Part shown: piece by piece, positions 39,326 through 45,827 of the stretch
How positions within the stretch are numbered: position 1 is the first letter of the stretch
How the letters are laid out: each line of letters begins with the position of its first letter
From: an uncultured Erythrobacter sp.
Lineage (GTDB): Bacteria > Pseudomonadota > Alphaproteobacteria > Sphingomonadales > Sphingomonadaceae
Direction: 5' to 3'
Assembly (NCBI GenBank): GCA_947500645.1
Contig: CANMSD010000002.1
Location: 372,001 to 436,000 of the forward strand
Length of the DNA stretch: 64,000 nucleotides
Program-made: the position numbers and the translations under genes
Notes under the pieces: model-generated
Told to the model about the DNA's origin: nothing
Seen by the model: only the letters and a program-made list of their open reading frames with translations
Databases searched by the model: none

Positions 39326-39519
39326 CCCAGCAATTCCGGGAAAGCATCCCGGAACTCTGCGGCATTGCCTCAGCCTTCTTGCGTTGGTCCCCGACTGAAT
39401 TCTGGCAGGCCACACCAGAAGAGCTGGCCATGGCGCTCCACAGCCCAAACTCAGATGCAACGGCATCGCCCACGCGCGAGCAGATCGCACAGATGATGGA
39501 AGATGATCGTCATGGATGA
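39322..39519 (+). CDS. GTA phage tail assembly chaperone, small (gp10.1)
   Basis: A 65-aa protein with the conserved core CGIASAFLRWSPTEFWQATPEELAMAL, recognised as the small rcc01693-type tail chaperone. It starts with GTG, overlapping the gp10 stop. It overlaps the tape measure start by 8 bp if that gene begins at 39512. Confidence 0.85.
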   Translation: MTQQFRESIPELCGIASAFLRWSPTEFWQATPEELAMALHSPNSDATASPTREQIAQMMEDDRHG

Positions 39520-40081
39520 CAATATTGAAGAACTCGTCGTCGACGTGCGCGCCACAACCGATGGCTTCACCAGCGATCTTGAGAGCATGCGAGGCGCACT
39601 AGACACGTCTCTGCTCGATGGGTTCGAAAAGGCCGGTAACGTGCTCGAGCGAGGGCTATTATCTGCCTTACGCAATGGCAGCCTCGGTTTCGATGACCTC
39701 AAGAAGACAGCGCTAAGCGTGCTCGATCAAATTGCTTCCCACGCGATCAAAGCCGGGATCGGTTCGCTGTTTGGCGGCTCCTCGTCCGGGTTTGGTGACA
39801 TTGTCGGACAATCACTCGGCGCATTGCTCGGCCTGCCTGGCCGCGCGACTGGCGGCCCCGTGAGTCCGGGAAGCAGCTATTTGGTCGGCGAACGCGGCCC
39901 GGAAGTGTTCGTTCCGACCAGCTCAGGACGGATCGAACCCAATGGCAGCGACTCACAATCTCGCGATGTCCGGGTTGCCATCCAGGTGGCATCGCCGCGC
40001 GGGACCTCGGCGCCAGTCGCTATGCGCCGTTCATCACGGCAAGTCGCCAGCGCCGTTCGGCGTGCACTTCAACAAACATAA
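39512..40081 (+). CDS. GTA tape measure protein (gp11)
   Basis: Sets tail length and occupies the tail lumen. At 189 aa it is very short, as expected for the short GTA tail. The helical N-terminal part (ATTDGFTSDLESMRGALDTSLLDGFEKAG) is followed by a glycine-rich hydrophobic segment (IKAGIGSLFGGSSSGFGDIVGQSLGALLGLPGRATGGPV) and the C-terminal LVGERGPEVFVPTSSGRIEP motif seen in tape measure proteins. I chose the second Met (MDDNIEELVV) for its better spacing from GGAAG; the track start is three codons earlier. Confidence 0.85.
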   Translation: MDDNIEELVVDVRATTDGFTSDLESMRGALDTSLLDGFEKAGNVLERGLLSALRNGSLGFDDLKKTALSVLDQIASHAIKAGIGSLFGGSSSGFGDIVGQSLGALLGLPGRATGGPVSPGSSYLVGERGPEVFVPTSSGRIEPNGSDSQSRDVRVAIQVASPRGTSAPVAMRRSSRQVASAVRRALQQT

Positions 40082-40093
40082 AGGGCGAGCACA

Positions 40094-42418
40094 ATGGCAT
40101 TCTGGTTGGCACGCGAGCGGCGCGGGCAGGAATCGAGCTATCTCCAACGGTTCGACCCGCGGTTCTGGACGATTGATTTTCCCCGTCCTGCGATGGGATC
40201 GATCGTCACCACGTCGGCTGATAGCTTCAAAGTGGACGTCGAACTGCATCATGAAGGTGAGTTGGTCGGACTGATCTGGGACAGTGTCAATGCGTTCGAT
40301 CACCCCTTGCTCGCGTACGAGACAAGCCGCGATTACTCTCACACGACCCTCAGTTTCCGTTGGCAGTCCAGCGGGGTGGCGACGCTGGACCAGGCCAATG
40401 GCCCAACTCTTACGATCGAGGGCCGGGACGCGTCAGGCCAGCCGAGAACTTGGTATGTCAGACTTTGGAACTACGCCAACGGCTCACCAACGAATGCGAT
40501 CATTACTCTGCCGTTTTCCAACCTCGAAAGCGGCTGGGTCTTGCCTGGTGAACAAGTATGGCCGTCCGATATCGACCGAATGTTCATTTCGATCGCCGCG
40601 CCAAACTTCGTTTCTCGAAGCAGTGAACCACTTGCCTCTCGTCTGAATGGAAGCGTTACCGTTTCAGGCATCGCTTGCGACGGAAAGAATTCGATGCTCG
40701 AATTGGGCGACATTCGACTGCCGCCCCATCAAGAGCGAATGGCGACCGCGTATGACGACGCCTACAATCAGACACCTGCACGCCTTCTTCGGAATATCGT
40801 TGGCCTAGGGTATCGAACCGAGATCTTGCATTATGTCGGGATGAGTCACTTCATGCAGCTTGAAGCTGATGGAGGCGGCGAACTGAAAGTGATCGATGGC
40901 GGGCCGCTTAGTGTGCCTGCAGAGATATGGCACGAGAGCTTCTTCGAACATTGCAGCAAGAACGGCTTCGAAGCGATTTCATCAATCTCATACGAGTTAT
41001 TCGACGCGTATTGCCCGGAGGCCTGGAAGCAGCGCACCGCGAGCGGTGCGCAAGCGCTTACTGGCTGGGTGCCACCTTCCACATTGCTTTCACCGGCCAA
41101 CGCCGACGCGATGGCATGGCTGCAAGCGAGCGCAGTCAATTTCATCGAACTTATGCAAGACGCGCAACTGCCCGTCCGATTCCAGATCGGGGAACCCTGG
41201 TGGTGGATCACGCCAGCGGGCGAGATATGCCTTTATGATGATGCCGCAAGGACAGAATTTGGCGGTAGTCCACCGACGATCTCCGATGTCCGGGCCCCTC
41301 TGAATGACAGTCAAAAGGCACTGCTTGATGAAGCCGGTGCATTGCTTGCCCAATCCACTGCAGACTTGAGCCAAGCTGTACGCAATGCAGCAACCGGCAG
41401 CGCGGAGATCTTGCTACTCGCGTTCACGCCGACAATTCTCGATGCGGAAACTCCCGAGCTCTATCGAGCAAACCTGCCCATTGGCTGGGCTCATCCCGCC
41501 TTCGACCGGTTGCAACTGGAGGATTATGACTGGTTGACCACTGGCGCTGACGCCGATCGCCGCCGAGCCTATGCCTTGGTCGATACAAGGTTGGGATACC
41601 CCGTTGACCAGCAAGACTATCTATCAGGCTTCGTCCTGCTCGAGACAAATGCCGAGGTGATGTGGCCCCTAATCGACATGGGGCTCGATGAAGCAAAAGA
41701 GCGTGGCGTCGAACGCCGGTTCGTCTGGGCCCTGCCGCAGGTCGCTCGCGATGGATACACACGCCTCCCCAAAAACCACGAGGAACCCATGCAATCATTT
41801 GATGATGTTCTATACCCGTTTGCCCTCGGGCGAGACACGGCGGTCGCACCGGAATTCTCCACGTCAGTTGCGGTCATGGCCTCCGGCCACGAACGGCGGA
41901 ATTCTCTTTGGAGCGATGCCCGAATTCATTTCGATGTCGGACCAGGTATTCGCTCGGAAAGTGAACTGGCAGAACTGATTGCGTTCTTCCGGGCGCGCCG
42001 TGGAGCTGCTCGAGGGTTCAGAATATCTGACCCGTTCGACAACAGTTCGAATGGCATGACGGGCAGTCCAGGAACTTCAGATCAGCTGATTGGCATGGGT
42101 GATGGGCTCAAAGCAGACTTCCAACTCGTGAAGACCTACGGCACTGGCGATGACCAACAGAAACGCATTATCACCAGACCACGCCCAGAGACGGTTAAGA
42201 TCAGCGTTGGAGACTACGAAAGCACTGACTGGACTCTAAGCGAAAAGGGCGTCGTACAGTTTGCGCAAGCCCCTGCAGCTGGAGATGAAGTGCGCGCTGG
42301 CTTTCTGTTCGATGTACCCGTCCGTTTCGCAGACGATCGCATAGACGTCTCAGCTGTCAATTTCGAAGCCGGTGAAGCGCCCAGTATTTCGCTGATCGAA
42401 ATTCGCGAGGCATCGTAG
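40094..42418 (+). CDS. GTA DUF2460 distal tail protein (gp12) fused to a large N-terminal region
   Basis: The C-terminal ~209 residues (from Met566, MQSFDDVLYPFALGRD) make a complete DUF2460 distal tail protein: MASGHERRNSLW, LIAFFRARRGAARGFRISDPFDN and RIITRPRPETVKI. The preceding ~565 residues are extra compared with Rhodobacter gp12. They contain a beta-rich part (residues ~1-200) and a region with IWHESFFEHCSKNGFEAISSISYELFDAYCPEAW and RFQIGEPWWWI that looks like a glycoside-hydrolase-type TIM barrel, perhaps the non-contractile tail sheath-like group. AAGGGCGAG precedes the first ATG. A Shine-Dalgarno-like GAGGA also precedes the internal Met566. Confidence 0.85.
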   Translation: MAFWLARERRGQESSYLQRFDPRFWTIDFPRPAMGSIVTTSADSFKVDVELHHEGELVGLIWDSVNAFDHPLLAYETSRDYSHTTLSFRWQSSGVATLDQANGPTLTIEGRDASGQPRTWYVRLWNYANGSPTNAIITLPFSNLESGWVLPGEQVWPSDIDRMFISIAAPNFVSRSSEPLASRLNGSVTVSGIACDGKNSMLELGDIRLPPHQERMATAYDDAYNQTPARLLRNIVGLGYRTEILHYVGMSHFMQLEADGGGELKVIDGGPLSVPAEIWHESFFEHCSKNGFEAISSISYELFDAYCPEAWKQRTASGAQALTGWVPPSTLLSPANADAMAWLQASAVNFIELMQDAQLPVRFQIGEPWWWITPAGEICLYDDAARTEFGGSPPTISDVRAPLNDSQKALLDEAGALLAQSTADLSQAVRNAATGSAEILLLAFTPTILDAETPELYRANLPIGWAHPAFDRLQLEDYDWLTTGADADRRRAYALVDTRLGYPVDQQDYLSGFVLLETNAEVMWPLIDMGLDEAKERGVERRFVWALPQVARDGYTRLPKNHEEPMQSFDDVLYPFALGRDTAVAPEFSTSVAVMASGHERRNSLWSDARIHFDVGPGIRSESELAELIAFFRARRGAARGFRISDPFDNSSNGMTGSPGTSDQLIGMGDGLKADFQLVKTYGTGDDQQKRIITRPRPETVKISVGDYESTDWTLSEKGVVQFAQAPAAGDEVRAGFLFDVPVRFADDRIDVSAVNFEAGEAPSISLIEIREAS

Positions 42419-43227
42419 TGCGTGTCTTTTTCGACCGAGAGCTGGACAATGTAGCCACATTTTGGCGCGTGTTTCGGCGTGACGGTGTCACGCTCGGCTT
42501 CACCAGCCATGATCGCGACTTGTACTTCTCTGGCATCGTACACCAATCGGCACCAGGAATGGTGCCGTCCGCGATCCGGCGCACAATAAATGTAGATGAT
42601 GATGACGCTGAGGTCGAAGGTGCGCTAAGCCATGATTCAATTCGAGCCGACGAGCTTGCGACAGGTCTCTACGACGCAGCATCGATAGAAATCGGAGCGG
42701 TGGATTGGGAAGCGCTCGATCACCATGTTTTCTACAATGGAAAACTCGGCACGATTGAAGACGACAACCACAGTTTTTCAGCCCAATTGAAGTCAGCAAA
42801 AGCAATTCTGGAAGAAGATCTGGTACCGCGGACAAGCCCGACCTGCCGGGCAGAGTTCTGTGGCAAGGGATGCTCTCTATCGGCTGCGACGTTTACCTCG
42901 CTTCGATCGGTGTCAGCGCTAGATCTTGATGCCAACTCAGTGCAATTTCCCGGCATCACCATGGATGACTTCATCGATGGCCAGCTACGTTTTCTGGATG
43001 GCCCTCAAACGGGCCTCACCTTCGGGATTGTGGCCAGTGGCGCAGAGGGACTGACACTTGATCGCCCCCTCGTCGCTGGGACCGCAGTCGGTACAATGGT
43101 AGAGCTACGAGAAGGCTGCGATCATACATTTGCCTCGTGCCAAGGTCGTTTCGGCAATGCCGAGAACTTTCGCGGTGAGCCGTTCTTGCCCGGCAATGAC
43201 CTTCTTGCTCGTTACGGCAAGTCATAG
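42418..43227 (+). CDS. GTA baseplate hub protein (DUF2163, gp13)
   Basis: Hub of the tail tip. The 269-aa protein has the DUF2163 N-terminal part (DGVTLGFTSHDRDLYFSGIVHQSAPGMVPSAI) and a BR0599-type C-terminus (REGCDHTFASCQGRFGNAENFRGEPFLPGNDLL). Cysteines occur in two groups, TCRAEFCGKGC and GCDHTFASC. These resemble the iron-sulfur-type ligands of lambda-gpL-like hub proteins; that role here is an inference. GTG start shares one base with the previous stop (TAGTG). Confidence 0.9.
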   Translation: MRVFFDRELDNVATFWRVFRRDGVTLGFTSHDRDLYFSGIVHQSAPGMVPSAIRRTINVDDDDAEVEGALSHDSIRADELATGLYDAASIEIGAVDWEALDHHVFYNGKLGTIEDDNHSFSAQLKSAKAILEEDLVPRTSPTCRAEFCGKGCSLSAATFTSLRSVSALDLDANSVQFPGITMDDFIDGQLRFLDGPQTGLTFGIVASGAEGLTLDRPLVAGTAVGTMVELREGCDHTFASCQGRFGNAENFRGEPFLPGNDLLARYGKS

Positions 43228-43655: not shown

Positions 43656-45827
43656 ATGGCAACCATTATTTTGACGGCCGTCGGATCAGCTCTCGGCGGG
43701 CCTATCGGTAGCACAATTGGTGCAATCATCGGACAGCAGGTCGACCAAGCGATATTTGGTAGCGGAACACGGGAGGGGCCGAGGCTAAAAGAGCTATCGG
43801 TGACGACGTCCAGTTACGGCCAGCCGATGGCGCGAGTATTCGGACGAATGCGTGTGCCAGGTACGATCATTTGGTCGACTGACCTTATTGAAAGCTCTGA
43901 GAAAAGTGGTGGGGGAAAGGGAAAGCCATCGACAAAGACCTACAGCTATTCCGCATCATTCGCCGTCGCCCTTAGCAGTTCGCCCATCTCATCTCTGGGA
44001 AGAATTTGGGCCGACGGTGAGCTTCTTAGAGGTGCTGCCGGCGACTTGAAGGCAGAGGGGGGACTCCGCATTTACAATGGGCGTGGGGATGATCCCGTAG
44101 ACCCGCTCGTTGCAGCCGATAAAGGTGGCAACGCTCTGGCATTTCGCGATTGCGCATACGTCGTCTTCGAAAATCTTCAGCTGGCCGATTTCGGCAATCG
44201 GATTCCGGCCCTTACTTTCGAAATCATGGGCGAGGACAATGCTTCCGTTCATCTCGCGGATGTAGTTCCGAGCGCAGATCATTCGAGTACAGCCTCTTCA
44301 CTACCACACTTGCGAGGCTTCGCGGACGAAGGAGGCCCGTTATCGTCAACCTTGTCCGTGATCGGGCAGGTATTTCCGATCGTCTGCGCTACGGACGCCA
44401 GTGATCTGCGCGTCGCTCAGATTGAGAATGCCAGCGCTGACGTGACCGCACTGCCAGAGAAGCTGGTTGATAGGGAACAGGAGGAGAAGGAGCATCGCCG
44501 AGTTGAGAGGGTCGGCAAAGAACCACTCGCCATGCGATATTACGATGAGAGCCGAGACTATCAACCTGGTGTTCAGCGCGCGATCGGCGGTCGTTCGAAT
44601 GGACGCGAAAGAATACTGGATATGCCAGGCACTCTTCTAGCAAACGGCGCGCGGGCGATTGCCAATGAAACGGCCCAACGCGCAAGGTGGTACCAGGAGC
44701 AAGTTTCATGGCGAATGGCTGAGCTTGATCCAATGGTCAAACCAGGCGAGATTGTCCAAATCCCCGGCAAGCTAGGGAAATGGCTAGTCCGGAGATGGGA
44801 ATGGCTTGATCGCGGAGTGGAATTGGACCTCGAGCGGATTCCGCCAGAATTCAACAACACACCGCTTGAAGAACTGGCTTTTGATAACGCACCACAAGAT
44901 CTACTTCCAGGCTCGACCATACTGAACGTATTCGAGGTCCCACCTGACCTTGCTGCATCCCAATCGGATCCGATCATTCTCGCGGCAACTTCTTCCGAAA
45001 ATTCTGCATGGCGCGGTGCGGCTCTCTATGTCGAACAGGGTCAAGGACTTATTCCAATTGCTTCATCAAACCGCTTGCGCTCAATCACGGGCTACCTCGC
45101 TCAAGACTTAGCGGGTTCCTCATCGACATATTTGCAGACCCAGGCCTCGCTCTTGGTGCAACTGCCCGCTCACGACCTCACGTTCACAGAAACAGATATC
45201 TCAGGCCTCGCGCTTGGCGCGAACAGGCTCTTGGTTGGCGCTGAAGTGTTGCAATTTCTTGAGGCTGAGCCGCTAGGTGGCGGCTTGTGGAGGCTTAGCG
45301 GGCTGCTACGCGGGCGCGGTGGAACTGAAAATACAGCAATCGAAGGTCACGTCGCCGGCACTTCAGTGGCTCTGATTGATGAGCGCCTGACCGTGCTGGA
45401 CGCCTCGCTGGTTCAATCGAACGCTGCAACTCGCATTGGTGCGATCGGACTTGGCGACATCGATCCAGTTTTCGCAAGTCTCCAAAATGCTGGCATTTCT
45501 AGACGCCCGTTGTGTCCAGTCCATCCTCGAGTTCTTGAAGCACCAGATGGCACTTGGGAATTCTGTTGGACGAGGCGCGCGCGCGGCCAATGGCTATGGG
45601 AAGATGATGTCGATGTCCCGCTGGTAGAGGAAGTGGAATCGTATGTGATCGGTTACGGGCCGATCGAAGAGCCCTTCGCGACTTGGTCAGTTGCGACAAC
45701 ACAGATCGCGCTTTCCGAAGCTGAGCGAAACGCATTGCTTGCCAACTATGGCTCCGGCGACCTGTGGGTCAAGCAAGTCGGAACCTTTGCAAATTCGCCA
45801 GCGACCTTGATCGCACAGATTACGTAA
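43656..45827 (+). CDS. GTA megatron-like tail tip protein (gp15, short form)
   Basis: Large tail-tip protein for host contact and DNA exit. The N-terminus MATIILTAVGSALGGPIGSTIGAIIGQQVDQAIF and SYGQPMARVFGRMRVPGTIIWSTDL are typical. A phage-tail_3-like middle (QRARWYQEQVSWRMAELDPMVKPGEIVQIPGKLGKWLVRRWEW) and the fibre-binding C-terminal region follow. At 723 aa it is roughly 550-600 residues shorter than Rhodobacter gp15, and I see no TIM-barrel segment between the N-terminal and middle parts. Confidence 0.9.
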   Translation: MATIILTAVGSALGGPIGSTIGAIIGQQVDQAIFGSGTREGPRLKELSVTTSSYGQPMARVFGRMRVPGTIIWSTDLIESSEKSGGGKGKPSTKTYSYSASFAVALSSSPISSLGRIWADGELLRGAAGDLKAEGGLRIYNGRGDDPVDPLVAADKGGNALAFRDCAYVVFENLQLADFGNRIPALTFEIMGEDNASVHLADVVPSADHSSTASSLPHLRGFADEGGPLSSTLSVIGQVFPIVCATDASDLRVAQIENASADVTALPEKLVDREQEEKEHRRVERVGKEPLAMRYYDESRDYQPGVQRAIGGRSNGRERILDMPGTLLANGARAIANETAQRARWYQEQVSWRMAELDPMVKPGEIVQIPGKLGKWLVRRWEWLDRGVELDLERIPPEFNNTPLEELAFDNAPQDLLPGSTILNVFEVPPDLAASQSDPIILAATSSENSAWRGAALYVEQGQGLIPIASSNRLRSITGYLAQDLAGSSSTYLQTQASLLVQLPAHDLTFTETDISGLALGANRLLVGAEVLQFLEAEPLGGGLWRLSGLLRGRGGTENTAIEGHVAGTSVALIDERLTVLDASLVQSNAATRIGAIGLGDIDPVFASLQNAGISRRPLCPVHPRVLEAPDGTWEFCWTRRARGQWLWEDDVDVPLVEEVESYVIGYGPIEEPFATWSVATTQIALSEAERNALLANYGSGDLWVKQVGTFANSPATLIAQIT

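Follow-up and report, generated by a model that had tools for sequence, protein, structure and literature searches.

A gene transfer agent distal tail gene of Sphingomonadales, fused to a tail sheath and TIM-barrel module, carries a conserved internal start codon

Why should a gene transfer agent encode its distal tail protein at the end of a much longer open frame, and why should a start codon sit just where the free protein would begin? Gene transfer agents (GTAs) are phage-like particles carrying DNA, and the question is raised by a single open frame of 774 amino acids at positions 40094 to 42418 of the window, the whole 64-kb stretch of DNA that was analyzed, from a Sphingomonadales genome near Erythrobacter. 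The window holds, in a single copy, the gene order of an RcGTA-type head-tail cluster (terminase, portal, protease, capsid, connector, tail tube, g10, tape measure, g12, hub, peptidase, and megatron), with the tape measure and peptidase matches being weak. We identify the frame as gp12 of a gene transfer agent of this type, known here from its genes; Sphingomonadales clusters have been classified as GTAs (PMC6821227). The features of the region are as follows.

39503 to 40081, + strand: tape measure protein (g11 position), adjoining gp12 on its upstream side, with a weak RcGTA_tape match
40094 to 42418, + strand: gp12-type open reading frame, the long product, with tail sheath domain, TIM barrel, and distal tail protein
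40094 to 40096, + strand: start codon of the long product (MxxWLA), kept among relatives
40142 to 40708, + strand: NCTSP_N (PF23844), residues 17 to 205, E 6e-88
40721 to 41758, + strand: TIM-barrel_NCTSP (PF23845), residues 210 to 555, E 2e-166
41756 to 41788, + strand: linker from the RDG motif to the internal start, 11 codons
41780 to 41784, + strand: internal Shine-Dalgarno-like GAGGA, with a spacer of 4 bases (ACCC)
41789 to 41791, + strand: internal start codon ATG (Met566), at which relatives conserve a start codon
41789 to 42418, + strand: distal tail protein (PF09343/TIGR02217), 209 amino acids, the proposed short product
42418 to 43227, + strand: baseplate hub protein (g13), whose start overlaps the gp12 stop by 1 base
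43656 to 45827, + strand: megatron-type protein (g15), 723 amino acids, without the middle section that holds GTA_TIM

A first-pass annotation had described one 774-residue frame ending in a complete DUF2460 protein of about 209 residues, and the open frame and the Pfam and NCBIfam domains agree with that description. TIGR02217 matched residues 568 to 771 over profile positions 1 to 209 of 210 (188.9 bits against a cut-off of 136.65), and PF09343 (DUF2460) matched residues 570 to 771 over positions 1 to 205 of 205 (243.5 bits against a cut-off of 30.4). The NCBIfam label obtained above its cut-off was "phage distal tail protein, Rcc01695 family." Rcc01695 itself, the g12 product of RcGTA (PDB 6tba and 6teh), belongs to the same family, occupies the same slot between the tape measure and hub genes, and aligned with the C-terminal 204 residues of gp12 at an E value of 2e-44. 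In this alignment, residue 2 onward of Rcc01695 (PDB 6tba) corresponds to window residue 568 onward, and Met566 therefore lies one residue before the expected start of a free protein, much as had been suggested for it. The RcGTA protein, however, is free and has 210 amino acids, whereas gp12 carries a 565-residue module in front and has kept the old start as an internal one. The GAGGA noted upstream of the ATG at 41789 is indeed present, although its spacer is four bases and not the five first given. In RcGTA, the distal tail proteins form a hexameric ring between the tail tube and the baseplate (PMC7296036).

The module in front of the distal tail protein matched PF23844 with 293.4 bits and PF23845 with 553.7 bits, against cut-offs of 27 each, and both domains were present in that order. 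Among proteins of known structure, the tail sheath subunits gp64 and gp65 of phage N4 are closest to it. The former aligned with residues 267 to 556 (E 3e-43) and the latter with residues 12 to 90 (E 3e-15), and in a fold comparison the barrel matched N4 gp64 at Z scores of 28 to 30. On these matches, the fused part is assigned as the N-domain of a non-contractile tail sheath followed by a TIM barrel, related to N4 gp64 and gp65, and the upstream part that had been presumed to be fused to gp12 thereby gains an N4-like identity. In N4 (PDB 9lc0, 9yf4, and 9yf5), gp64 and gp65 are separate proteins, whereas gp12 has both parts and the distal tail protein in one chain. As described in two N4 reports (PMC12633501 and PMC12892993), six gp64:gp65 heterodimers assemble on the short tail as a six-fold sheath, in which gp65 is the subunit that binds NfrA, the receptor. 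The barrel fold also resembles the barrels of PgaB, beta-amylase, and GH35 glycoside hydrolases, with Z scores of 20 to 23 at about 10% identity. Three barrel residues, E301, E367, and E476, were invariant among 70 sequences; a residue-level match to the hydrolase acids was sought, and no catalytic pair was established in the TIM barrel. A model of the entire protein, predicted with AlphaFold from an alignment of 70 relatives, had a mean pLDDT of 91 and fell below 50 in one interdomain stretch, residues 562 to 567, right at the internal start.

Phages offer partial likenesses to this architecture. The Acinetobacter siphophage Loki also has a distal tail gene beside a sheath/TIM-barrel gene (LOKI_16 and LOKI_17), but these are separate genes in the opposite order, and a distal tail domain is absent from LOKI_17. 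In phage phi92 gp142 and its Justusliebigvirus relatives, a single protein, about 32% identical to the fused part of gp12, holds both NCTSP_N and the TIM barrel; that protein, however, lacks a distal tail domain, and its gene adjoins the tailspike genes of a contractile phage. At three further loci (L122, L126, and L355), which are likely prophages, the distal tail and sheath/TIM genes are separate, with the distal tail gene first, as in Loki.

The fusion is typical of the order and not peculiar to the window genome. Among 196 genomes of Sphingomonadales, DUF2460 was found in 102 and the NCTSP barrel in 99, and nearly all of the DUF2460 matches sit in frames of about 770 amino acids or longer. 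The named relatives include Erythrobacter, Qipengyuania, Novosphingobium, Pontixanthobacter, and others. When 385 genomes across the class were searched, the NCTSP barrel was found in four genomes of the window's family (counting the window's own) and in a further genome, G352, which has separate genes for the distal tail protein and the barrel. The fusion was not found in the Alphaproteobacteria sampled outside the Sphingomonadales in that set, and elsewhere in the class DUF2460 is free, in proteins of about 205 to 290 amino acids in most genomes.

Relatives of the fused frame were gathered in two sets. The first comprised 76 fused open reading frames, 41 to 75% identical to the window protein among those measured. 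The second comprised 156 from two other collections and may share some strains with the first. Pooling gave 223 distinct relatives at approximately 41 to 78% identity, and these allow several explanations of the locus to be weighed against each other.

One is that the upstream part merely lost its stop codon, so that the short product is the functional one and the fusion is a by-product of reading on. The Shine-Dalgarno (SD) sequence of the internal start is strong and often exceeds that of the long start, as this explanation would have it: in 69 sequences, the mean SD energy was -7.6 at the internal start versus -6.2 at the long start, and the internal one was stronger in 47 of the 69. Some damaged copies point the same way. 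At L348 to L353 and L107, the sheath part is broken by a frameshift, a deletion, or a stop; the internal start is intact in L348, L349, L351, and L353, as if the short product had outlived the long one, with L350 and L352 being unreadable at that point. The separate genes of Loki and of L122, L126, and L355 would also fit, but those loci run distal tail first and sheath second, the reverse of the fusion. The linker itself argues against simple read-on. Between the RDG motif and the internal start it spans 3 to 19 residues in the relatives, with all differences in length being in frame, and none of the 223 linkers contains a stop although 746 of their 2,468 codons (30%) are one substitution away from one, a count biased in that the frames had been selected as open. 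Whole-genome searches that read through stops, however, listed few broken copies, and the breaks that could be placed disrupt the sheath part, leaving the linker untouched. On balance, we consider it improbable that the fusion is a mere by-product.

Another explanation holds that the internal ATG and GAGGA are fossils, the unused former start of gp12, and that the long protein is the sole product. Met566 marks the point at which a free distal tail protein starts, which is what any simple fusion would leave behind. An unused codon, however, fits poorly with what was found at this position. In the first set, the codon was ATG in 49, GTG in 25, and TTG in 2, a start codon in 76 of 76, with the start of L133 being displaced by one codon; no other column among the 762 well-filled codon columns mixes start codons in this way. 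The second set yielded ATG in 96, GTG in 49, and TTG in 9, that is, 154 of 156 at the exact position. Of the remaining two, one has its start shifted by one codon and the other has lost it: L213, from Pontixanthobacter aquaemixtae, reads AAG with the fusion still open, and it is the sole relative found in this state. Pooled, 222 of the 223 distinct relatives carry ATG, GTG, or TTG at Met566, and the expectation that the internal ATG would prove conserved in related genomes is thus borne out in the wider form of a conserved start codon.

The choice of synonymous codons adds to this evidence. Valine at the Met566 position is always GTG and leucine always TTG, although 51% of the valine codons of the frames are not GTG (first set). 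Given the frames' own codon use, finding nothing but start codons for valine and leucine at this position has a probability of about 10^-9 for the first set and about 10^-25 for the second, figures that ignore shared ancestry, as do the shuffle counts given below. Ancestry is accounted for by a tree of the 223 distinct sequences, which called for at least 44 codon changes at Met566 and only one exit from ATG, GTG, and TTG. The single loss in L213 would fit a fossil start, but at 41 to 78% identity with so many changes at this very codon, we judge the fossil explanation to be very unlikely. We also rejected a chance or local oddity of the window, because the fusion and the internal start are order-wide.

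The bases upstream of the codon point in the same direction. An SD core (GGAG, GAGG, or AGGA) precedes the Met566 codon in 97% of the 223 relatives, whereas synonymous shuffles drawing on codons of the same gene gave an expectation of 59% and a maximum of 66%. The SD-like bases are therefore conserved as well, as the first-pass annotation would have them, and above the level at which coding alone would leave them in a fossil. The mean SD pairing energy was -7.7 kcal/mol, the corresponding values being -5.6 for synonymous shuffles and -2.4 for ATG codons elsewhere in the frame, and the glycine codons upstream of the internal start are GGA in 20 of 32 cases versus 11% elsewhere. In the window, the SD energies are -5.9 kcal/mol for the internal start and -3.7 kcal/mol for the long start. 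Taken alone, the window's internal SD is unremarkable, 31% of synonymous shuffles equaling -5.9 kcal/mol, and the case therefore rests on the relatives. It is hardly credible that the SD-like sequence, though it falls squarely within the linker that joins two well-folded domains, only stalls ribosomes so that the TIM barrel folds first, with no initiation, since pausing needs no start codon and yet the next codon is restricted to ATG, GTG, or TTG, and since the spacer is mostly 4 to 8 bases, as in initiation.

From the conservation of the start codon and of the SD core, together with the lack of stops in the linker, selection appears to keep both the fusion and the internal start. Our preferred reading, in which we have good confidence, is that gp12 is a dual-product gene in its fused form throughout the order, with an internal start under selection and two proteins as its predicted output. 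The same conservation supports the earlier proposal of a fused domain plus a free distal tail protein arising by internal initiation. Ribosomes would make the 774-residue protein and, very probably, a free distal tail protein of 209 residues. Less surely, proteins of both lengths may enter the distal tail ring.

A possible role for the fused module comes from the megatron. The window megatron (43656 to 45827) scored 346.8 bits with NF048004, for which the cut-off is 800, and gave no full-length match with GTA_TIM. Its similarity to RcGTA-like megatrons is limited to the two ends, and the middle section is therefore missing. Megatron relatives in the order mostly have 700 to 860 amino acids, counted from stop to stop. 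GTA_TIM (PF13547) was absent from all 196 Sphingomonadales genomes, the window genome included, and was found in 36 of the 385 genomes across the class. In RcGTA, the peripheral domain of the megatron comprises residues 230 to 744 (PMC7296036). Because GTA_TIM is absent across the order, the N-terminal module of gp12 may be the replacement for the hub-side TIM barrel of the megatron. A move of GTA_TIM itself into gp12 was not supported, as a comparison of the NCTSP TIM barrel with GTA_TIM by hhalign showed no profile relation (no match; probability, 0.1%). With the two barrels not detectably related, this would be a replacement and not the transfer of the same domain.

How two lengths of the protein might share one ring can be modeled on the contacts in RcGTA, a system outside this order. 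There, the N-terminal Ala2 of the distal tail protein contacts the three-fold baseplate, and odd and even subunits of the ring make different contacts (PMC7296036). By analogy, a 565-residue extension would sit at the junction of ring and baseplate and may disturb these contacts. Short copies would then supply the baseplate contacts, since it is Ala2 that touches the baseplate in RcGTA and since odd and even contacts differ, and long copies would carry the sheath/TIM modules outward around the tail tip. The simplest model would be a ring of long and short copies, perhaps alternating, in which the sheath/TIM modules may take the surface-glycan or receptor job of the peripheral TIM barrel of the megatron. 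A more specific version is offered only tentatively: a mixed ring, perhaps of three long and three short copies, could turn the six-fold tail into the three-fold baseplate, with three sheath/TIM arms at the sites of the RcGTA megatron barrels, an unrelated barrel, borne by another protein near the baseplate, taking the hydrolase or receptor role, and the internal start setting the ratio of long to short protein.

In-frame internal starts are known from lambda C/Nu3, from T7 gene 4A/4B, and from Cas11 made from cas8 or cas10d. In each of these, as proposed for gp12, one frame gives rise to a long protein and to its C-terminal part. We are aware of no internal start of this kind in the gene for a tail ring (distal tail) protein or in a gene transfer agent. 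A literature search of partial coverage found no dual-product tail ring or GTA gene, and in the GTA literature, as far as the incomplete search extended, neither a g12 fusion nor an internal start was mentioned. Each of the three elements (the distal tail family, the sheath family, and internal initiation) is already known; within the reach of that search, their combination in one gene appears to be new. Standard annotation misses internal starts; the homolog in one annotated relative is recorded as a single "DUF2460 domain-containing protein." If the dual-product reading is true, a whole bacterial order builds its GTAs from a ring protein of two lengths. This would offer a concrete handle on how a six-fold tail is joined to a three-fold baseplate and on how Sphingomonadales particles, without the RcGTA megatron barrel, recognize recipients. 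Looking for a codon column that contains start codons only is, moreover, a strong and inexpensive way to test fused phage genes for hidden second products.

The fused gene was also met in records of phages, viruses, and plasmids. Inheritance of the fusion from a known phage was rejected, as it was absent from isolated phages among 50,697 phage records, and the only record with the fusion was an uncultured 5.4-kb contig, MT840053.1. This contig (L063), recorded as "Bacteriophage sp." from human faeces, encodes the fusion split in two, its internal start being GTG, and it is probably part of a GTA that was submitted as a phage. In IMG/VR, the fused gene occurs on many "viral" contigs of about 13 to 16 kb (L268 to L347), which are likely to be GTA clusters listed among the viruses. 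Positions 162370 to 188631 of NZ_CP155752.1 (L356) hold a complete head-tail cluster of the GTA type, fused gp12 included; the record describes this 395-kb replicon as a Sphingomonas parapaucimobilis plasmid.
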